Virus record (IMG/VR): IMGVR_UViG_3300006641_000033
Location: 1 to 61,981 of that record
Strand: one strand, 5' to 3'
DNA length: 61,981 nt
From: a virus
Under the pieces are notes generated by a model, which saw nothing but the letters and a program-made list of their open reading frames with translations, ran no database searches and was not told the origin of the DNA. The translations under genes and the position numbers were made by a program. Numbering within the stretch: the stretch's first letter is position 1; every line of letters starts with the position of its first letter. Of this stretch, positions 3,322 through 53,017 are shown one piece after another.

Positions 3322-3665
3322 CCCGCATCAGTCTCCTCATCGGGTGGTGTGTGCTCAGTCTGCATTGTGCGTCATCGCTGCACATACAGATACGGAATAT
3401 GACGCCCTTCGTTCGATGGGCAGACACACGCGTCACACAGATGGAGATCACGCTCCCCGCACAGGATCCCGGCAGGTATGCGCTCGTCACCGTCGAAGAT
3501 GCCATGACGGTGCGCGATTCCGTGGTCACATTGACCCCGAGCGTACAACATCTGCCGTGGACGATTCCGGTGCGCACGTCAGGCACGATATGGGTGCGCA
3601 TCGAAATCTATGACCAGCACCATCGGTGTCTGCAGACGCGCATCGAACGCATGGAAGTGCCATAA
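3312..3665 (+). CDS. Secreted or membrane-anchored small protein
   Basis: A 117-residue product overlapping the previous gene by 10 bp. The N-terminus (MRLTRISLLIGWCVLSLHC) looks like a Sec signal peptide or signal anchor. The residue before the cysteine is histidine, so it does not fit a normal lipobox. The rest is rich in short beta-type segments and has no catalytic motif I recognise. It ends just before the sigma70-like promoter of the next operon. Function unknown; the envelope location is an inference from the N-terminus. Confidence 0.55.
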   Translation: MRLTRISLLIGWCVLSLHCASSLHIQIRNMTPFVRWADTRVTQMEITLPAQDPGRYALVTVEDAMTVRDSVVTLTPSVQHLPWTIPVRTSGTIWVRIEIYDQHHRCLQTRIERMEVP

Positions 3666-3672
3666 TGCGCGT

Positions 3673-3701
3673 TTGACTTTTCCATCGGGATCGGATATCA
3701 T
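3673..3701 (+). promoter_or_regulatory. Sigma70-type promoter for the accessory operon
   Basis: TTGACT and TATCAT are separated by 17 bp. An AGGAG ribosome-binding site at about 3708 and the ATG at 3724 follow, so the accessory genes can be transcribed independently by host polymerase. Confidence 0.75.
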
Positions 3702-3723
3702 ACGAACAGGAGTTGAACATCTC

Positions 3724-4785
3724 ATGACACATCCGCAAGAGAAGCCGATTATCGTCTTCGGTCTTGGCCACATTGGCCAATACATCCACGCAGAACTGAT
3801 CAAGCGCACCTATCGTGTGATCGGGTATGATCTCCGTGACGGTCATGATCTCACCAATCGTGAGACGATCCGTTTGGCACTCGTCAAGGGGTGTGCCGTC
3901 ATTGACACGCTCCCCTATCAATGCAATCTCGCGGTGGCGGAGGAAGCCGCGTCATTGGGTGTCGCGTACTTCAATCTCTCAGAGGATGTACGGAACACCA
4001 ACCTCATTCGAAATCTGCAGACCACCAGCGTCTTGATTCCACAGTGCGGATTAGCGCCGGGCATGGTCAGCATTCTCGCCGCGCATCTGGCGCATCCGTT
4101 CGACCGTCTTGATGAGATCCTCATTCGCGTCGGCGCACTCCCCCGCGTGCCGTTCAATCATTTGCAATACGCACTCACATGGAGTTGTGCGGGACTCGTC
4201 AATGAATACTGCGCACCGTGCGATGTGATTGAGAATGGCGTGCGCACACAGGTACGAGCCTTGGATGACGTGGAGCCGCTGGAGTTTTTGGGGCACACCT
4301 TTGAAGCCGCACATACGAGTGGCGGCATTGGCACGTTGTGCAACAGTTATCTTGGCAAAGCCCAACGCGTCAACTACAAAACGCTGCGGTATCCCGGTCA
4401 CTATCAGTACATGCACATGTTTCGCGATGATTTGAAACTTGCGGAGCATAAAGATCGTGCAGAACAATGGTTCTCCGCGGCGTTGCCTCGCACCACGCAC
4501 GATCTCGTCGCGATCTGGATCTACGTCGAAGGCACCTATCTGGGCGTCAACGGCCATCGTGCCCATCTGTTTGATGGGTATCAGCATATCGTACACGCAA
4601 CCCCTGACGTGACGGCGATTCAGCGGACCACCGCGCATGGCTGTCTTGCGGTGGTCGATGCGTATCTGCGTGGTCAGATTCCACAGCGCGGATTTGTGCG
4701 ACAGGAAGATCTTCCGTTTGACGCGATTGCCGCATCACCGTTCTTTGATGTCTATCGCGCAGGATTGCGACAGGTGACGCGATGA
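3724..4785 (+). CDS. Saccharopine dehydrogenase-like NAD(P)-binding protein
   Basis: A 353-residue protein starting MTHPQEKPIIVFGLGHIGQ. The N-terminus is a Rossmann fold with the dinucleotide loop GLGHIG at about residues 12-17. The central part resembles the saccharopine dehydrogenase / lysine 6-dehydrogenase catalytic domain: CGLAPGMVSILAAHLA, YALTWSCAGLVNEYCAPCD, TSGGIGTLCNSYLGK and NYKTLRYPGHY. Family members oxidise or reduce amino-acid imine bonds such as saccharopine or lysine. The next gene (an oxygenase) overlaps by 4 bp, so the two are translationally coupled and probably act in one pathway. The substrate cannot be read from sequence. Confidence 0.75.
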   Translation: MTHPQEKPIIVFGLGHIGQYIHAELIKRTYRVIGYDLRDGHDLTNRETIRLALVKGCAVIDTLPYQCNLAVAEEAASLGVAYFNLSEDVRNTNLIRNLQTTSVLIPQCGLAPGMVSILAAHLAHPFDRLDEILIRVGALPRVPFNHLQYALTWSCAGLVNEYCAPCDVIENGVRTQVRALDDVEPLEFLGHTFEAAHTSGGIGTLCNSYLGKAQRVNYKTLRYPGHYQYMHMFRDDLKLAEHKDRAEQWFSAALPRTTHDLVAIWIYVEGTYLGVNGHRAHLFDGYQHIVHATPDVTAIQRTTAHGCLAVVDAYLRGQIPQRGFVRQEDLPFDAIAASPFFDVYRAGLRQVTR

Positions 4786-5927
4786 CAGAACCATTGAAAC
4801 CGTGGCAGCACGGGTACACACTCGATACATTGCTTGACTATGAAGCGCGGTACACCACATACAACAGTTACATGGCGTCTCCGTTTGCAGCATTCAAGAA
4901 GCATCGAATTGCAGAACGCCTCCACGCAAACGAATTTGTCGTAGGAGAGGGATATGCGTATGTGATCACGACGGCGAAAGTGCGCACGGCACTGTCACAG
5001 TTTCCGGATGTCGCGTTTGGTGAGCGGTTTGCGGGCGACCGTACGTTGTCATATCTCGCAGTGGATTGGAATGATGGCCGATGGCAGCAAGAGTTTGCGC
5101 GTCTGTGTACGGCACCATCTCCGCTGTGGATACAGGTGCCGGTGCGCGACACGGAAGCCATCACGCACATTAGTCGCGTCGCGACCCGTGCAGGCACCAA
5201 GATTACCACGTTCGGTGATATCTTCGCATGGTTCGTACGCGAATCCGAAGAAGACGCAGGATTGTTTGGTTCGTCACGATTGCGCACCGTGGAACCCGTG
5301 CATCAATATGGCATTTGCCCGTGTGAGGTCGACGTCGAAGCACATGCACGGGCATTGTATTCCGAAGTCACGGCGCTGTCGGTACCGTATCAAGATCATT
5401 ACAGCAACTACAATGCGGGTCATGCATGGGGGGCGTTATCGGTGCGCGGATATAGTGCTGACGTGCACATGATCGCGAAACCATCGGAAATGAATGCGAA
5501 GTGGAAAGCCGCGCATGCGCATGAAGATTTCACATTGCAGGATACCACGCTTCGTGCGCAACTGCCGTCATTGGAACCGCTGCTCCATGCGTTTGGCGAT
5601 GTTACATGGCATCGTATTCGATTGATGCGTTTGCAGCCCGGCGGGGGTGAACTTCAGCGTCACACCGATCAAGTCGATGCAGATTCTGGATTCGGTGTCG
5701 GGCAATTGATGCGCATACACGTGCCGTTGAAGACGAATCCGCAAGTGATCTTTACGGTATGGGATGCGAATGATGTCGCGCAGGAGGTGCACATGCCCGC
5801 GTTCTCTGCGTATGCATTGGATACGCGCTGGCCGCATCGAGCGATCAACGGCGGCCGCGACGAACGAATTCATCTGGTCATGGATGCGGTGACGACGCCC
5901 GCATTGCAAGCGAGGTTGCGACCATGA
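4782..5927 (+). CDS. 2-oxoglutarate/Fe(II) oxygenase-like protein (Asp/Arg hydroxylase type)
   Basis: A 381-residue protein overlapping the upstream dehydrogenase-like gene by ATGA. The C-terminal third carries a double-stranded beta-helix iron site: LQRHTDQVDADSG gives HxD, and RWPHRAINGGRDERIHLVMD gives the distal histidine and the arginine that would hold 2-oxoglutarate. This resembles the aspartyl/asparaginyl beta-hydroxylase group. The N-terminal 180 residues are of unknown type. A role hydroxylating a free amino acid, a peptide or a small molecule made by the upstream enzyme is inference. Confidence 0.7.
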   Translation: MTEPLKPWQHGYTLDTLLDYEARYTTYNSYMASPFAAFKKHRIAERLHANEFVVGEGYAYVITTAKVRTALSQFPDVAFGERFAGDRTLSYLAVDWNDGRWQQEFARLCTAPSPLWIQVPVRDTEAITHISRVATRAGTKITTFGDIFAWFVRESEEDAGLFGSSRLRTVEPVHQYGICPCEVDVEAHARALYSEVTALSVPYQDHYSNYNAGHAWGALSVRGYSADVHMIAKPSEMNAKWKAAHAHEDFTLQDTTLRAQLPSLEPLLHAFGDVTWHRIRLMRLQPGGGELQRHTDQVDADSGFGVGQLMRIHVPLKTNPQVIFTVWDANDVAQEVHMPAFSAYALDTRWPHRAINGGRDERIHLVMDAVTTPALQARLRP

Positions 5928-6731: not shown

Positions 6732-8102
6732 ATGTTCCTGACACAAAAAACGCTGCCTCGTCGCACCGTGCTCAAAGGATTGGGGGCCACACTCTCGCTC
6801 CCGCTCTTGGATGCGATGATTCCGTTGAATGCATCCGCGGCTCCGACCACCCCCAAAAATCTGATTGCCATCGAAGTCGTTCACGGCTCCGCCGGCAGCA
6901 CCACCTACGGGCAGAGCAAAAACCTTTGGTCGCCTGCGACCACCGGCACCGAGTTCGACATCTCTAAGAACATTCTGTCGTCGTTGCATCCGTATAAAGA
7001 CCATCTTACCATCATCAGTCAGACGGATGTGCGCATGGCGGAAGCGTTCACTGCACCGGAGATTGGCGGTGATCACTTCCGTGCGAGTGCGGTGTTCCTG
7101 ACGCAATCGCATCCGAAACAAACGCAAGGCTCCGATGTATTCGTAGGCACGTCACTTGATCAGATCTACGCAAAGGCATACGGGCAACAGACGCCGCTGC
7201 CGTCGATGCAGTTGTGCATTGAGAATGTCGATCAAGCGGGCGGCTGCTCCTACGGCTATACCTGCACCTATACCGATACGATTTCATGGGCGTCCCCGAC
7301 GGAACCGCTCCCGATGATCCGTGATCCCCGTATGGCGTTCGAAGCGTTGTTTGGGGATGGCGTCGATGCGGCGGATCGTCGCGAACGATTGCAGTCACGT
7401 CGCAGCCTGCTGGATTTCATGCAGTCGAGTATTCGTCGCATTCAACGCGAGTTGCCCAAATCCGATGCGATCCGCTTGGATCAAATGACGACCTATGTGC
7501 GAGAACTCGAACGCCGCATTCAGTTGACGGAAGCGCACAATACCAGTGGTGAAGAACGCAGTCTGCCCAATGCGCCCGTCGGCGTGCCGGATGACTATGA
7601 AGAACACATGCGTCTGATGTTCGATCTGCAAGTGGCCGCGTTTATGATGGGCACCACCCATGTGTTCTCGCTCAAGACGGGACGGGATGCCTCGAACCGC
7701 GTCTATCCCAAGAGCGGCGTCTCGGGTGGGTTCCATCCCACGTCACATCATGGCGAAGTGGCGACACGCATTGAGGAGTTTGCGAAGATCAACCAGTATC
7801 ATGTGAGTATGCTGCCGTATCTGCTCGACCGTCTCAAGTCGGTGCCGTCAGCGGGTGGCACGTTACTGGATGATACGCTCGTCATCTACGGGTCACCAAT
7901 GGGGAATCCGAACCTGCACAACCACAAACGCTGCCCGCTCCTGCTGCTCGGTCATGCAGGCGGCACCATCAAGGGGCATCGTCACATTCATGCCGCAGAC
8001 GGCACCCCGATGGCGAATGCAATGTTAGCCGTGCTGCAGAAGTTGGGTGTTGACGTAACGTCTTTCGGCGACAGTAACGGCGTCATGGATCTCAACGCAT
8101 AA
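6732..8102 (+). CDS. DUF1552 family protein with TAT signal
   Basis: A 456-residue protein. The N-terminus has a twin-arginine signal (PRRTVLKGLGATLSLPLLDA). The body matches the DUF1552 layout: an early GSAG segment, GGDHFRASAVFLTQSHP, a coiled region near residues 210-260, and a C-terminal segment with LVIYGSPMGNPNLHNHK and LLLLGHAGG. DUF1552 proteins are common in Gemmatimonadota, Acidobacteriota, Planctomycetota and Myxococcota and are often next to DUF1592/DUF1588 genes, which are absent here. Family role is unknown; some resemble the sulfatase/phosphatase fold. Its presence in a T4-like phage is unusual and suggests recent capture from a host. Confidence 0.75.
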   Translation: MFLTQKTLPRRTVLKGLGATLSLPLLDAMIPLNASAAPTTPKNLIAIEVVHGSAGSTTYGQSKNLWSPATTGTEFDISKNILSSLHPYKDHLTIISQTDVRMAEAFTAPEIGGDHFRASAVFLTQSHPKQTQGSDVFVGTSLDQIYAKAYGQQTPLPSMQLCIENVDQAGGCSYGYTCTYTDTISWASPTEPLPMIRDPRMAFEALFGDGVDAADRRERLQSRRSLLDFMQSSIRRIQRELPKSDAIRLDQMTTYVRELERRIQLTEAHNTSGEERSLPNAPVGVPDDYEEHMRLMFDLQVAAFMMGTTHVFSLKTGRDASNRVYPKSGVSGGFHPTSHHGEVATRIEEFAKINQYHVSMLPYLLDRLKSVPSAGGTLLDDTLVIYGSPMGNPNLHNHKRCPLLLLGHAGGTIKGHRHIHAADGTPMANAMLAVLQKLGVDVTSFGDSNGVMDLNA

Positions 8103-16189: not shown

Positions 16190-16282
16190 GCCCCTGTAGT
16201 GTAACGGTGAGCACCCGAGGCTTATACCCTCGCAGCCCTAGATGTGGGCGGAGTCTTGGTTCGAATCCAAGCGGGGGTACCA
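16190..16282 (+). tRNA. tRNA with long variable arm and predicted UAU anticodon
   Basis: Acceptor GCCCCTG pairs with CGGGGGT (two G-T), the discriminator is A and CCA is encoded. The D-stem is GTG/CAC. The anticodon stem CGAGG/CCTCG holds loop CTTATAC, so the anticodon reads UAU. The T-arm is CTTGG-TTCGAAT-CCAAG. The variable region is 22 nt with a GCCC/GGGC stem, a class II body normally found in Leu, Ser or Tyr tRNAs. UAU would decode Ile AUA, which is normally served by a class I tRNA. Isotype is therefore uncertain. It lies between genes 45 and 44. Confidence 0.75.
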
Positions 16283-32371: not shown

Positions 32372-32569
32372 ATGTCATCGCATATTTCAGTCAGTGAAGT
32401 GGAAGAACGTATCAAGCAGTTGAAGGCGACCGCAGAGCAGCTTGGACAAGAATTACAGAATCTCGACGCAGCGCGACAGCAGACATTTTTGCGGGCGCAA
32501 ATCGTACAGGGTGTGGTCGCGGTGTTAGAAGATCTGGTTCGCACGACTCGCCCCGACGATGGAGTTTGA
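32372..32569 (+). CDS. Small coiled-coil phage protein
   Basis: A 65-residue protein with a GGAGGC ribosome-binding site. It is almost entirely helical: SVSEVEERIKQLKATAEQLG followed by QELQNLDAARQQTFLRAQIV. Small coiled-coil proteins of this kind are frequent in T4-like phages. The end overlaps the next gene by 11 bp. Function unknown. Confidence 0.6.
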   Translation: MSSHISVSEVEERIKQLKATAEQLGQELQNLDAARQQTFLRAQIVQGVVAVLEDLVRTTRPDDGV

Positions 32570-32954
32570 ACAACTAACACCCAAGAATGCGATTCTCTAC
32601 GCGACGCGTATGTATGATAATCCGCAATGTATCTCTTTTGATGAGTTTGCGGAAGATTATAAGCGGTTCAAGTATATCAAACGACTGTGCCGCCGGTATG
32701 TGTTGTCAAAGCAATTGAGCGAACGGCTGATTCTGAATCATATCATTGGGTTAGTGAATGTGTTTGGCCCTGAAGCCACCGTGCGATTGTTGTTTGTGAA
32801 ATGCGACAACGAGCGCACCTATCGTGTGTTAAAACCGTTTCTGTCATATCTCGCAATACTGCCTGATGTGATTGTCGGTATCAACGGATATGATATCATC
32901 ACACGTGATATACCAAATGATGAGCGGATTTGGAAAAAACTACGAGAACTCTAA
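32559..32954 (+). CDS. Conserved T4-like phage protein (DUF7207-like)
   Basis: A 131-residue protein starting MEFEQLTPKNAILYATRMYD. The run FDEFAEDYKRFKYIKRLCRR and SERLILNHIIGLVNVFGPEA is strongly conserved in marine T4-like phages, where it is a standard hypothetical. It is helical and soluble. It overlaps both neighbours. Role unknown. Confidence 0.75.
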   Translation: MEFEQLTPKNAILYATRMYDNPQCISFDEFAEDYKRFKYIKRLCRRYVLSKQLSERLILNHIIGLVNVFGPEATVRLLFVKCDNERTYRVLKPFLSYLAILPDVIVGINGYDIITRDIPNDERIWKKLREL

Positions 32955-42501: not shown

Positions 42502-42586
42502 GGAGAGGAGCCCAACGGTCGGGAAGCAGTCTTGAAAACTGTCGCCGGTAATACGGTAGCAGGTTCGAATCCTGTCCTCTCCGCCA
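42502..42586 (+). tRNA. tRNA-Ser(UGA)
   Basis: Acceptor GGAGAGG/CCTCTCC, discriminator G and encoded CCA. Anticodon loop CTTGAAA gives UGA. A long variable arm and T-loop TTCGAAT complete a standard class II serine tRNA of 85 nt. Confidence 0.92.
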
Positions 42587-44249: not shown

Positions 44250-44335
44250 GGGGGCGTGGCGTAATGGCAGCCGCGGAAGCCTTAAGAGCTTTTGTTCGCA
44301 AGAACGTGGGGGTTCGAGTCCCTCCGCCCCTACCA
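44250..44335 (+). tRNA. tRNA-Leu(UAA)
   Basis: Acceptor GGGGGCG/CGCCCCT (one G-T), discriminator A and encoded CCA. Anticodon stem AAGC/GCTT with loop CTTAAGA gives UAA. A long variable arm (GTTC-GCAA-GAAC) and T-loop TTCGAGT complete a class II leucine tRNA of 86 nt. Confidence 0.92.
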
Positions 44336-44347
44336 CCATTTTTCATC

Positions 44348-44420
44348 GGGGTTGTAGTTCAGTTGGTTAGAACGCAGCACTGTCACTGCTGAGGCCGCGA
44401 GTCCAGTCGCGGGCACCACC
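44348..44420 (+). tRNA. tRNA-Asp(GUC)-like, degenerate
   Basis: D-arm GTTC-AGTTGGTTA-GAAC and anticodon arm CAGCA-CTGTCAC-TGCTG (anticodon GUC) are well formed, and a G would sit at the discriminator. The acceptor GGGGTTG/CACCACC has two mismatches. The T-arm lacks the TTCGA-type loop (CCGCG-AGTCCAGT-CGCGG), and no CCA is encoded. It may be a decayed or edited tRNA. Confidence 0.55.
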
Positions 44421-45958: not shown

Positions 45959-46150
45959 ATGCCACGATGGGATTTTCAATGTGAACAGTGCCGGTGCGTT
46001 ATGGAGATCAGTTTTTCGTCATACGCTGCATCGGAAACGGCCACATGCCCGACGTGTCACTCTCCCCTTCGACGTCTTCCGAGCACCGCAGTTTTTACCA
46101 TTCATGGATACAACGCAAAAAACCTCTATTCGATCAAAGGAAAATCATGA
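45959..46150 (+). CDS. FmdB-type zinc-ribbon protein
   Basis: A 63-residue protein starting MPRWDFQCEQCRCVMEISFS with CPTCHSPLRRLP, the FmdB/CxxC-CxxC ribbon layout. GAGGTAATAC lies before the start. The stop overlaps the glycosyltransferase start (ATGA). A second ribbon of the same type is encoded at 48332. Confidence 0.7.
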   Translation: MPRWDFQCEQCRCVMEISFSSYAASETATCPTCHSPLRRLPSTAVFTIHGYNAKNLYSIKGKS

Positions 46151-47097
46151 GCACAAACGCTAAAGGCGGCACAGAACTGATCTGCGCCAATCTTCACGCA
46201 GCACTTCCGGAATTAACCAGTCAGGTGCAGATCATCATGTCGCGCCCAGAACAGGTGACGCTAGAAGACAAACCGCGTATTCTGTGGTTGCAAGATCTAC
46301 CACAAGACCCTGCTAGTGCATGCCTTCGCGATAAATCGTATCGCACACAGTTCAATCGTATTGTGTTCTGCTCACATTGGCAGCAACAGCAGTATCAACA
46401 GTATTTGGGCATTCCGTATGCAGAAGGCGTTGTCATCAAGAATGCGGTGCCGTTTCGTGAAGCGCAGTTTCCAAAGCCGCGCACGGAGAACAAGCTCAAG
46501 TTTATCTACACTTCGACGCCACATCGTGGATTAGCGGTTCTTGCGGCGGCCGCAGAAGCCCTCTCCAAGATTCGTCAGGATTGGGAACTGCATGTCTACT
46601 CCTCATTCAAGATCTACGGATGGGAAGGAGCGGATGCCCAGTTTGAACCACTCTACACGTTGCTGAAGAATAATCCCTGCGTCGTCTATCACGGCACACA
46701 GCCGAATGATGTCGTGCGTGACGCGTTGCAGTCATCTCATGTGTTTGTCTATCCGTCAATCTATGCGGAAACCTCATGCATGGCGATTCAGGAAGCCCTC
46801 ATGTCTGGCTGTCTCGCGATCACCTCAAACTTTGGTGCGCTGCCAGAAACGTGCGCAGAGTGGGCATGGATGTTCCCGTTCGACGAACGGCCGGAACTCA
46901 TGATTCATCGCACGTTAGCTGGCATGCAGCGCGCCTTGGAATCTTACGATGAACCGCTGATGCAGGAACAACTGCGTGTGCAGAGTCTCTACTATCAGCA
47001 GTTCTATGCGTTTGAAGGCCGAGTGCCGACATGGAAGCGATTGCTGGAAATGGTCATTGAAGAAGGCACGCCGGTGCAGAAGCTGGTTATTGAATAA
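46147..47097 (+). CDS. Glycosyltransferase, GT-B fold (GT4/GT1-like)
   Basis: A 316-residue protein coupled by ATGA to the ribbon gene. It starts MSTNAKGGTELICANLHAAL. The C-terminal nucleotide-sugar region has FIYTSTPHRGLAVLAAAAEA, VVYHGTQPNDVVRDALQSSH, and FVYPSIYAETSCMAIQEALM followed by SGCLAITSNFGALPET, the E-x7-E motif of GT4 enzymes. It is one of two glycosyltransferases in the window. Acceptor unknown; DNA, capsid and host polysaccharide are all possible. Confidence 0.8.
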   Translation: MSTNAKGGTELICANLHAALPELTSQVQIIMSRPEQVTLEDKPRILWLQDLPQDPASACLRDKSYRTQFNRIVFCSHWQQQQYQQYLGIPYAEGVVIKNAVPFREAQFPKPRTENKLKFIYTSTPHRGLAVLAAAAEALSKIRQDWELHVYSSFKIYGWEGADAQFEPLYTLLKNNPCVVYHGTQPNDVVRDALQSSHVFVYPSIYAETSCMAIQEALMSGCLAITSNFGALPETCAEWAWMFPFDERPELMIHRTLAGMQRALESYDEPLMQEQLRVQSLYYQQFYAFEGRVPTWKRLLEMVIEEGTPVQKLVIE

Positions 47098-48593: not shown

Positions 48594-49271
48594 ATGTTTC
48601 ATCACTATCCTCCACTGTCGCTTCCGACATTGGAGCAGATGAATCTGAAAACCGGTCGCGTTTATCACGTGCTCAACGGTGCAGACTCCGGCGTGCATTA
48701 TCCGTCTATCACACGGGTACTCGGTGCAAAACCCAAACCGCAATTGGAAGCGTGGAAACGGCGCGTGGGCCATCAAGAAGCACAACGCGTCTCACAAGCT
48801 GCGTCTGGGCGTGGTAAGAAACTGCATGCGCTGGTTGAGGAATACGTCGGTAATCATCCCATTGGCACAATTGAACCCCACGTCAATGAACTGTGGCAGC
48901 ATCTATCGCCATGGCTCGATGCGCATATCACGGGTGTCTACGGTCAGGAATGCGATCTCTATTCACGCAAACTCGCAGTTGCGGGTCGTACCGACATGAT
49001 TGCCACCGTTGATGGTGCATTGGCGATTGTCGATTTTAAGCAAGCGAATCGGCCGAAACGCCCCGAATATGTTGGCGACTATTACCTTCAAGGTACGTTC
49101 TACAGTCTTGCTTTGTATGAACTAACAGGAATGCAAGCAAAACATATTGTTATTCCAGTAGCTTCGCCAGAAGGATTGCAAGTTTTTGTCACACAACCGA
49201 AGCTTCATTACCAAGAACTTTTCAAGCGAATCAAGGATTTTTACATTGATCTGGAGATGCGAAGCGATTAG
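48594..49271 (+). CDS. PD-(D/E)XK exonuclease, MGME1/RecB-like
   Basis: A 225-residue protein. YPSITRVLGAKPKPQLEAWK and RGKKLHALVEEYVG form the N-terminal part. The nuclease core is VAGRTDMIATVDGALAIVDF with KQA, giving D-x(n)-D-F-K-x-A, then VGDYYLQGTFYSLAL. This is the phage exonuclease family related to MGME1 and Cas4/RecB. It may process recombination ends or degrade DNA. The tmRNA gene follows. Confidence 0.8.
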   Translation: MFHHYPPLSLPTLEQMNLKTGRVYHVLNGADSGVHYPSITRVLGAKPKPQLEAWKRRVGHQEAQRVSQAASGRGKKLHALVEEYVGNHPIGTIEPHVNELWQHLSPWLDAHITGVYGQECDLYSRKLAVAGRTDMIATVDGALAIVDFKQANRPKRPEYVGDYYLQGTFYSLALYELTGMQAKHIVIPVASPEGLQVFVTQPKLHYQELFKRIKDFYIDLEMRSD

Positions 49272-49273
49272 TG

Positions 49274-49282
49274 TGGTATAAT
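49274..49282 (+). promoter_or_regulatory. Extended -10 promoter for the tmRNA
   Basis: TGGTATAAT within TGTGGTATAATAG. It overlaps the region just after the exonuclease stop codon. Predicted start near 49289. Confidence 0.6.
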
Positions 49283-49288
49283 AGATAC

Positions 49289-49610
49289 TAAATGTAGTCA
49301 ATGAAGTAATCGAGACATGTTTTGGACGCGGCTTCGATGCCGCCACCTCCACCAATAAACCTATGGGGGGTGAAAGGTTTCGACAGAGCAGAGTTGAGGT
49401 TATGGAGACTACCGACACGTCGCTGTCGTTAAACAGAGACACACAGAACTGACAACCAGTTCTCATTCGCAGCCTGAACGCTGCTTCTGCTTATGATAAA
49501 CATAAGCGCGGTCTTGGCGTCGTACCGGGCAACAGAAAGCACGCCATAGTCGTAAGTAGGGGAAACGCTATTTACCAGCACGCCGGCTCTGCTGACAACA
49601 ACCCGGCACC
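49289..49610 (+). ncRNA. ssrA: Circularly permuted (two-piece) tmRNA
   Basis: The tRNA-like 3' part comes first. A T-arm (GCGGC-TTCGAT-GCCGC) is followed by CACCTCC-A-CCA ending at 49354. After 11 bases the 5' part begins at 49366 with GGGGGTG, which pairs with CACCTCC over all seven positions (one G-T), and AAAGGTTTCGACAG, the conserved tmRNA D-loop region. GTAGTC (49294-49299) pairs with GACTAC (49407-49412), as helix P2 would. A tag frame ending FSFAA-stop and a CTTATG/CATAAG hairpin follow. Permuted tmRNAs are known in alpha- and some betaproteobacteria and cyanobacteria. The 3' end near 49610 is approximate. It would rescue stalled ribosomes with the host SmpB. Confidence 0.85.
49433..49477 (+). 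other. tmRNA tag reading frame
   Basis: Within the coding piece one frame reads TETHRTDNQFSFAA before a TGA at 49475. Tags typically hold a D-N-x segment and end in a hydrophobic residue plus Ala-Ala, as here. The exact resume codon cannot be fixed from sequence; the tag is at most 14 codons in this frame. Confidence 0.65.
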
Positions 49611-49618
49611 TTTATTAT

Positions 49619-49843
49619 ATGCCTGTGATGAACGTCTCGTCTGAACAACTCACCAAAGAGTTGCAATCCATCGTCGCAAGTCATCGTCTCTCGTTTCTCG
49701 ATGCGGTGTTATACTATTGCGAACAACGCAACATTGAACCCGAAGATATTGCTCTCAAGTTGGGCGACCGAATCAAATCGGAGTTAGCGCGAGAAGCGCG
49801 GCATCTTCATCTCTTACAGGCGAATACCGAAGAGTTATTCTAA
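49619..49843 (+). CDS. 33: Late transcription co-activator gp33
   Basis: A 74-residue protein. RLSFLDAVLYYCEQRNIEPE and DIALKLGDRIKSELAREARH match the gp33 co-activator family of T4-like cyanophages, and the C-terminus NTEELF fits a clamp-binding tail. It bridges host RNA polymerase and gp45 and with gp55 activates late promoters. The order 33-59-32 is that of T4. No ribosome-binding site is visible; ATG 49628 is an alternative start. Confidence 0.85.
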   Translation: MPVMNVSSEQLTKELQSIVASHRLSFLDAVLYYCEQRNIEPEDIALKLGDRIKSELAREARHLHLLQANTEELF

Positions 49844-51977: not shown

Positions 51978-52439
51978 CTAGTCGAAGTTCTTCAGGTGTG
52001 CGCGTAACTGCCACGCATGCTTGAGATGCGCTGCCATCCGATCTTGCAGGATATTGGCCAACCCCAAATCTCCTGCGGATTCGGCCGCGCGAAACGCTTT
52101 CGCCAACGACGTTTGCACCTGCGAGTTCACTCCCACCAAATCCTGCAACAGCGGAGTCGGCTGACCGTTCACCAACTGCGCGTCAGCAATCGTCGCTAAT
52201 TTTGCGACGTGCGACAGCGTATACGGTGCGTAGACATCATGCTGGCGTAACGCTTCCGCAATCGGATCAATCGACTCAAAGACGTCTTCGTAGAGTTGAC
52301 CGAAATACTTGTGCAGTGGAGCGAACAGCATTCCTTCTACATTCCAATGCGCGCCATGCGCACGAAGGTACATGACATACAGGTTGGCCATCAATTCTTT
52401 CAATGCGGCACTTAAGACAATTTCAGACGGGCTGGGCAT
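51978..52439 (-). CDS. dps: Dps/ferritin-like protein
   Basis: About 153 residues. YVMYLRAHGAHWNVEGMLFA, PLHKYFGQLYEDVFESIDPI and AEALRQHDVYAPYT match the Dps ferroxidase region (H-W-N...D...E). Dps forms 12-mers that bind iron and DNA. A CTAAATA element lies 19 bp upstream; GAGGAA before the ATG at 52439 favours that start over ATG 52454. Under a late promoter it may be packaged or protect host DNA late in infection; that is inference. Confidence 0.8.
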   Translation of the reverse strand: MPSPSEIVLSAALKELMANLYVMYLRAHGAHWNVEGMLFAPLHKYFGQLYEDVFESIDPIAEALRQHDVYAPYTLSHVAKLATIADAQLVNGQPTPLLQDLVGVNSQVQTSLAKAFRAAESAGDLGLANILQDRMAAHLKHAWQLRAHLKNFD

Positions 52440-52457
52440 ATATGGGTTCCTCATGGT

Positions 52458-52534: not shown

Positions 52535-53017
52535 TTACGGTGCTGACGGTGTGACGGTAATCTGCCGTCGTTTATCCTTTTCTGGCAGTACCCGTTCTAA
52601 TTGAATGCGTAGAATACCATGCTCAAACGACGCATCTTTTGCGTAGATATCGTCTGCCAACGGGATCTCCTTGACGAAGCTTCGGAGTGCAAGACCCCGG
52701 TGCAGATATTTGGGTGCTGTTTCCGCATTAGACGGCTCAGGACGCGTTCCTTTGATGGAAAGCACTCCACGCTCCACCGAGACATCCAAATCGCTTATAT
52801 CGAATCCTGCAAGCGCAAGTTCAATAGCAAATTCGTGTTCTCCAAACTGGAGAATGTTGTGCGGTGGATAGTTCTGGGCAGATGCAACGTGCCGAGTGGC
52901 ATACGCTAATTCATCAAACAATCGGTCGAACCCGACCGAGTATTGGTGAAATTCTTGGGGAAATGAGGTACTTTCGACAGCCGTCAGAAATTGACGAAGA
53001 GGGGTAAGTGCAGTCAT
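52535..53017 (-). CDS. Hsp20 / alpha-crystallin small heat-shock protein
   Basis: A 160-residue protein. SVGFDRLFDELAYA is the start typical of IbpA/Hsp20. NILQFGEHEFAIELALAGFD, ISDLDVSVERGVLSIKGTRP, KYLHRGLALRSFVKEIPLAD and FEHGILRIQLERVLPE form the alpha-crystallin domain. Hsp20 is common in T4-like cyanophages and may assist capsid or tail assembly. AGGAGA lies before the ATG. Confidence 0.92.
   Translation of the reverse strand: MTALTPLRQFLTAVESTSFPQEFHQYSVGFDRLFDELAYATRHVASAQNYPPHNILQFGEHEFAIELALAGFDISDLDVSVERGVLSIKGTRPEPSNAETAPKYLHRGLALRSFVKEIPLADDIYAKDASFEHGILRIQLERVLPEKDKRRQITVTPSAP

Follow-up and report, generated by a model that had tools for sequence, protein, structure and literature searches.

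A predicted circularly permuted tmRNA gene beside gp33 in a clade of T4-like phages

Two-piece tmRNAs arise from a precursor that is cut by tRNA-processing enzymes; the pieces stay paired, are charged with alanine, and work with SmpB. Phages carry such genes too. The 2022 description of phage Melnitz put the number of two-piece tmRNA structures in phage genomes at 53, and placed the Melnitz gene upstream of a gp33-like coactivator (PMC9004378). The tmRNA database paper gives 79 unique bacteriophage tmRNAs, all forms together, and RF04321 is a unified model for the permuted type (PMC11915505). Permuted tmRNAs in marine T4-like phages are already known.

The locus described here lies in the window, a stretch of 61,981 nucleotides from a virus (IMG/VR record IMGVR_UViG_3300006641_000033). 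An initial annotation, made from the sequence alone, considered a permuted tmRNA in a T4-like phage to be rare or undescribed. The 53 published structures and the shared gp33 position contradict that view, and permuted tmRNAs proved common in IMG/VR. Permuted tmRNA patterns matched at least 120 times in one scan of viral contigs and at least 101 times in another. Together with the other loci of this analysis, these matches yielded 160 distinct permuted tmRNAs whose coding pieces could be recognised, most from IMG/VR; the sample is pattern-based, and some of its contigs may represent host or prophage DNA.

The same annotation had read the locus as a phage-encoded, circularly permuted tmRNA in two pieces, naming Infernal searches with Rfam models and an ARAGORN search as checks. 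The Rfam models bear it out. RF04321 (tmRNA_permuted; curated cut-off 47 bits) matches positions 49293-49477 over its full model length, at 91.7 bits and far beyond chance (E 2.2e-16). In a scan of the window, RF01849 (alpha_tmRNA) matches 49242-49546 with 51.8 bits, marginally over its cut-off of 50. The beta model, scanned over the local region, reaches 59.1 bits, under its cut-off of 84, yet above the alpha score. Alpha-model scores of the related contigs L008, L020, and L026 and of Pelagibacter phage HTVC008M are 76.9-83.8 bits. ARAGORN, in contrast, missed the window tmRNA and reported zero tmRNAs on the related contigs scanned, although the same program, as a control, detects the permuted tmRNA of Melnitz. 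Because divergent members escape this standard gene finder, phage tmRNAs are under-counted.

Taken with helices kept across relatives and synteny with cultured phages, the covariance match upholds that reading of a presumably two-piece RNA. Positions 49290-49607 very probably encode a functional tmRNA, with the alphaproteobacterial type as the likely one, as judged from several features together: gene order; the acceptor stem with its G3-U70 pair; CCA; helix P2; the tag frame; the pseudoknot; and a conserved, fixed genomic location (Table 1). Counted on the other side are a T loop of 6 nt (usually 7), weak best scores with the subtype models, an unusual AGA resume codon, a dispensable gene, and phage records without SmpB.

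Table 1. Features of the permuted tmRNA locus and its neighbours (window coordinates)
Feature	Position	Strand	Basis or remark
Exonuclease gene, upstream neighbour	48594..49271	+	phrog_298, E 4e-53
Extended -10 promoter element TGG-TATAAT (promoter-like)	49274..49282	+	Read directly
Acceptor (3') piece	49290..49354	+	P2 strand, T arm, acceptor 3' strand; RF04321 alignment and pairing check
Helix P2, acceptor-piece strand GTAGTC	49294..49299	+	Pairs with 49407-49412
Acceptor 3' strand CACCTCC	49344-49350	+	Pairs with GGGGGTG
Discriminator A	49351	+	Acceptor piece
CCA, gene-encoded	49352-49354	+	End of acceptor piece
Intervening segment, 11 nt	49355..49365	+	Between CCA and 5' acceptor strand
Coding (5') piece	49366..~49607 (mature 3' end approximate)	+	RF04321 and RF01849 alignments; structure from sequence and relatives
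Acceptor 5' strand GGGGGTG	49366-49372	+	Pairs with CACCTCC
Helix P2, coding-piece strand GACTAC	49407..49412	+	Pairs with 49294-49299
Hairpin before tag, CGACA/TGTCG	49413..49428	+	CGTCA/TGACG in relatives; all cells pair, 12 sequences
Tag frame RTDNQFSFAA*	49445..49477	+	Proposed resume codon AGA 49445-49447; stop TGA 49475-49477
Hairpin over tag-frame start, GAACTG/CAGTTC	49446..49462	+	Stem types and RNAalifold
Hairpin with stop codon, GCAGC/GCTGC	49469..49484	+	Folds
H-type pseudoknot 1, CGGT/ACCG and GGCGT/ACGCC, loop GGCAACAGAAAGC	49509..49545	+	Stems by eye; loop aligned to RF01849
Hairpin between pseudoknots, GTAAGTAG/CTATTTAC	49552..49575	+	Read from sequence
H-type pseudoknot 2, CAGC/GCTG and GCCGG/CCGGC	49576..49607	+	Sequence reading, comparison with relatives
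gp33-like late transcription coactivator gene, directly downstream	49619..49843	+	phrog_254, E 2e-9

The tRNA-like part is as first described: a CCA end precedes the 5' half, GGGGGTG and CACCTCC pair over seven positions across the permutation, and GTAGTC and GACTAC form helix P2. The third acceptor pair is G-U (G3-U70), the alanine identity element for alanyl-tRNA synthetase. G3-U70 and A73 are present in the window and in all relatives compared, and G3-U70 in 160/160 of the permuted tmRNAs sampled. Acceptor 5' strands in the clade read GGGGGTG, GGGGGCG, GGGCCGG, and GGGCCCG, and the stem covaries: the compensated stems of relatives (GGGGGCG/CGCCTCC, GGGCCGG/CCGGTCC, and GGGCCCG/CGGGTCC) leave G3-U70 unchanged. 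Helix P2 also covaries, with 66 of 72 cells paired across 12 sequences. The T stem of the window, GCGGC/GCCGC, encloses the 6-nt loop UUCGAU; it covaries over 12 distinct sequences, and the 3' arm CTCCC of contig L024 pairs. A T loop of the UUCGA type occurs in the window (49328-49343) and L024, and one of the GGCAGUA type in most clade members; the D-like region differs in step. The pattern may reflect exchange of the tRNA-like domain.

Between the pieces lie 11 nt, as the initial annotation counted. The annotation expected longer segments from bacterial permuted genes, but the length is not unusual: the segment spans 6-159 nt in the clade, and 4 to more than 200 nt among the 160 tmRNAs sampled, which come mostly from viral contigs. 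It measures 159 nt in contigs L007, L008, L010-L013, and L027, and 146 nt in L037. Small open frames, among them MKNPLAQEVSKWLLRAYMVWSICADIFLLSGVVYLIFF, MWTYKCDAGIYTEDSLIKLLHLIFQHRFSHLLNGEGFKD, and MFKWLSKTRLVVITRDYFRERNRKADAKIPKYLSGTRSVYD, occur in these long segments and in that of Melnitz; their starts are ribosome-binding-site-like, and they appear unrelated to one another. Neither of the two non-Melnitz frames matched anything in phage records, where the Melnitz frame matched Melnitz strains only. By analogy with bacterial two-piece tmRNAs, host tRNA-processing enzymes would be expected to excise the segment.

The coding piece begins with GGGGGTG, followed by a D-like region, the P2 strand, a hairpin, the tag frame, the hairpin that holds the stop codon, and two pseudoknots. 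The loop of pseudoknot 1, GGCAACAGAAAGC, resembles that of alphaproteobacterial tmRNA, and the layout is the same in relatives. Pseudoknot 2 of the window is the sequence counterpart of the single pseudoknot found in most relatives.

Tags of relatives read RTDNQFALAA, RTDYQFALAA, RTVNQFAYAA, RTDNQFEIAA, RVDNQLAMAA, VVAELPMAA, VTDENQFAIAA, and GMETLPLAA. Ala-Ala-stop is constant in all of them, with synonymous codon changes and with TAA, TAG, and TGA interchanged; a hydrophobic residue precedes it across divergent relatives. Several clade members have an in-frame stop codon 4 or 5 codons before the proposed tag start, and indels fall just upstream of it, so the tag should start at or near AGA. 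We infer that AGA is the resume codon, a choice also reached by aligning the frame with HTVC008M's tag of 10 codons. A resume codon just past the hairpin is a less likely alternative, and would give the tag SFAA. Among 142 other permuted tmRNAs with a recognisable Ala-start tag the resume codon is GCA in 115, a count that is partly circular because the 142 were chosen by that start; 6 further permuted tmRNAs could not be parsed for a tag. Tags of the ANDN type dominate the sample, and none occurs in the window's clade.

The tag frame also bears on whether the RNA completes trans-translation at all. It could act as a decoy or inhibitor, binding SmpB or stalled ribosomes and blocking host tmRNA. 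Mycobacteriophage DS6A offers a precedent in its tmRNA of a tRNA domain only, and a molecule of such type inhibits tmRNA (PMC4131195, PMC11915505); the odd T loop and non-canonical tag start of the window would suit that role. A decoy needs no tag, however, and here a complete frame (hydrophobic residue, Ala-Ala, stop) is maintained through synonymous changes and in divergent relatives, which makes inhibition an unlikely function.

The hairpin that covers the tag-frame start takes several forms in the clade. Its 5' arm reads GAACTG, GAGTTG, GTAGTT, AACTGA, or CGGAA, and the 3' arm matches in every case; the stem has at least 6 bp in 11 of the 12 clade sequences, and 5 bp in the remaining one. 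Since shifting loop lengths made pair counts by column on the MAFFT alignment unreliable, stems were listed by hand for each sequence. A hand-made list of this kind is fitted to the structure. RNAalifold, run on the alignment without such fitting, serves as an independent check: of the 10 pairs that it predicts in the tag region, 5 show changes on both sides. As a feature unique to the clade the hairpin was ruled out: stems of at least 6 bp occur at the tag start in 43 of the 142 other permuted tmRNAs. On these alignments the hairpin is constant and covarying within the clade, not unique, and its novelty is weaker than first apparent. We put forward only tentatively that the clade is a distinct phage branch, with pseudoknots duplicated in some members and with tags that begin at a non-alanine codon (AGA, GTA, or GGA) enclosed by a conserved, covarying hairpin. 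The hairpin could then modulate resumption or the length of the tag, or fit the RNA for work during host translation shut-off.

A gp32 search returned 80 IMG/VR loci, and 50 records were scanned for tmRNA. Half of them (25/50) hold a permuted tmRNA over the cut-off: 24 contigs of the window's clade, with 77.8-104.6 bits for RF04321, and the more distant L037, outside it. The tmRNA lies immediately upstream of gp33 in every clade record that has one, and the exonuclease gene is usually upstream of the tmRNA where the contig extends that far. The surroundings are a T4-like core region: gp33, gp59, gp32, DNA polymerase, an SbcC-like recombination subunit, and the tail tube. The window, L002, and L003 have an identical tmRNA gene. 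A larger record, L003/G002 (94,654 bp), comes from the same phage as the window and overlaps it, with 99.99% identity over the 16.6 kb compared. A DNA similarity search against phage records gave no match.

Two related contigs, L006 and L139, keep the exonuclease gene and gp33, and gave no tmRNA match; since the neighbours stay, the tmRNA is dispensable. In L006 a promoter-like sequence and the first few tmRNA bases are left at 3330-3420, and an unrelated gene follows; the tmRNA was likely lost there through replacement. Such losses, and the ability of phages to acquire pieces of host ssrA (PMC9004378), would also fit a chance recent host copy, a decaying remnant, or a misassembly, functionless in the phage. 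This is very unlikely, given a fixed position in the phage core gene cluster of many contigs, compensatory changes in several helices, and the identical gene of three records. Moreover, none of the genomes searched, from 84,980 bacterial and archaeal species, matches the exact pattern of the clade's tag end, and thus no recent host source was seen; genome contigs searched with T-arm patterns for a host or donor gave none. Compared across these sequences, the gene is dispensable, yet under selection wherever it occurs.

In the window and its relatives, the extended -10 element TGNTATAAT stops a few bases short of the acceptor piece, and most relatives have a TTGAC- or TTGAT-like -35 at 17-18 nt. 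The corresponding element of Melnitz reads TGGTATAAA. A promoter consensus scan of the window that required a -35 found no complete promoter, since no -35 is recognisable there. These elements suggest transcription by a host sigma70-type polymerase, not from a T4 late promoter, and a role in late infection, as the initial annotation proposed, is unsupported. The promoter-like sequence, the constant place directly upstream of gp33 in the clade, and the shared strand could also describe a permuted tRNA-like element that regulates the gp33-gp59-gp32 cluster and is not a tmRNA. Conserved acceptor identity elements, CCA, and a tag frame are needless for leader structure, however, and the annotated tmRNA of Melnitz ends more than 250 nt away from gp33; a purely regulatory element is therefore extremely improbable.

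The functional tmRNA would work as follows. A precursor would start near 49290, from the sigma70-type promoter. RNase P would cut before 49366, and 3' tRNA-processing enzymes would trim to the CCA at 49354, leaving acceptor and coding pieces that hold together through P2 and the acceptor stem. The alanyl-tRNA synthetase of the host would charge the RNA with alanine. A search for SmpB in 12 related phage records, which are mostly or entirely fragments, turned up none, so host SmpB would be used to bring the charged tmRNA to ribosomes that have stalled on broken mRNAs. Translation would resume on the tag, for which RTDNQFSFAA is the probable sequence, and a ClpXP-like protease would receive the tagged fragment. 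The phage would presumably benefit by keeping ribosomes free during mRNA cutting and degradation.

The window contains further phage tRNA genes at 16190-16279, 42502-42583, 44250-44332, and 44348-44405, two of them found by covariance model only; in the match that begins at 44348, most of the T arm is missing. Accessory genes encode a DUF1552 protein (6732-8102) and saccharopine-dehydrogenase-like (3610-4785), Asp/Asn hydroxylase-like (4782-5927), ferritin/Dps-like (51978-52454), and Hsp20 (52535-53017) products. They are possible hints to the phage host.

Several T4-like phage lineages thus carry a ribosome-rescue RNA at a fixed place in a core gene cluster. The window's clade stands out through its Arg, Val, or Gly tag starts, its covarying tag-start hairpin, the tandem pseudoknots of the window, and its escape from ARAGORN. 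It also offers a natural series of tags and structures for testing the role of phage trans-translation.

Methylophilales phage Melnitz (MZ577097), a T4-like (Kyanoviridae) phage, has a permuted tmRNA of alphaproteobacterial type with the acceptor piece first and G3-U70, located between an exonuclease gene and gp33-gp59. It differs in its tag, ANDNYVPVDYALAA, in being detected by ARAGORN, and in an intervening segment of 142 nt with a small open frame (L125, about 46078-46219). Marine virus AG-345-P14 (MH319764, L121) has a weaker permuted tmRNA match (32514-32703, 64 bits), far from gp33. In Pelagibacter phage HTVC008M (KC465899), a tmRNA unannotated in that record lies at 145161-145370 (L120/L144), in the order exonuclease-tmRNA-gp33. 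It shares with the window the acceptor stem GGGGGTG/CACCTCC and a 10-codon tag, and scores 90.6 bits with RF04321 and 83.8 with RF01849; its tag, ANFNEYALAA, starts with Ala, and its intervening segment has 49 nt. With alphaproteobacterial two-piece tmRNAs (RF01849) the window has in common the gene order, P2, the G-U third acceptor pair, and a pseudoknot with a GGCAACAGAA loop, whereas its T loop is UUCGAU in place of the GGCxGUA type, its tag lacks ANDN, it has a second pseudoknot, and its subtype score is low. Set beside the published phage two-piece tmRNAs and the 160 sampled here, the window tmRNA is a divergent addition to a known kind.
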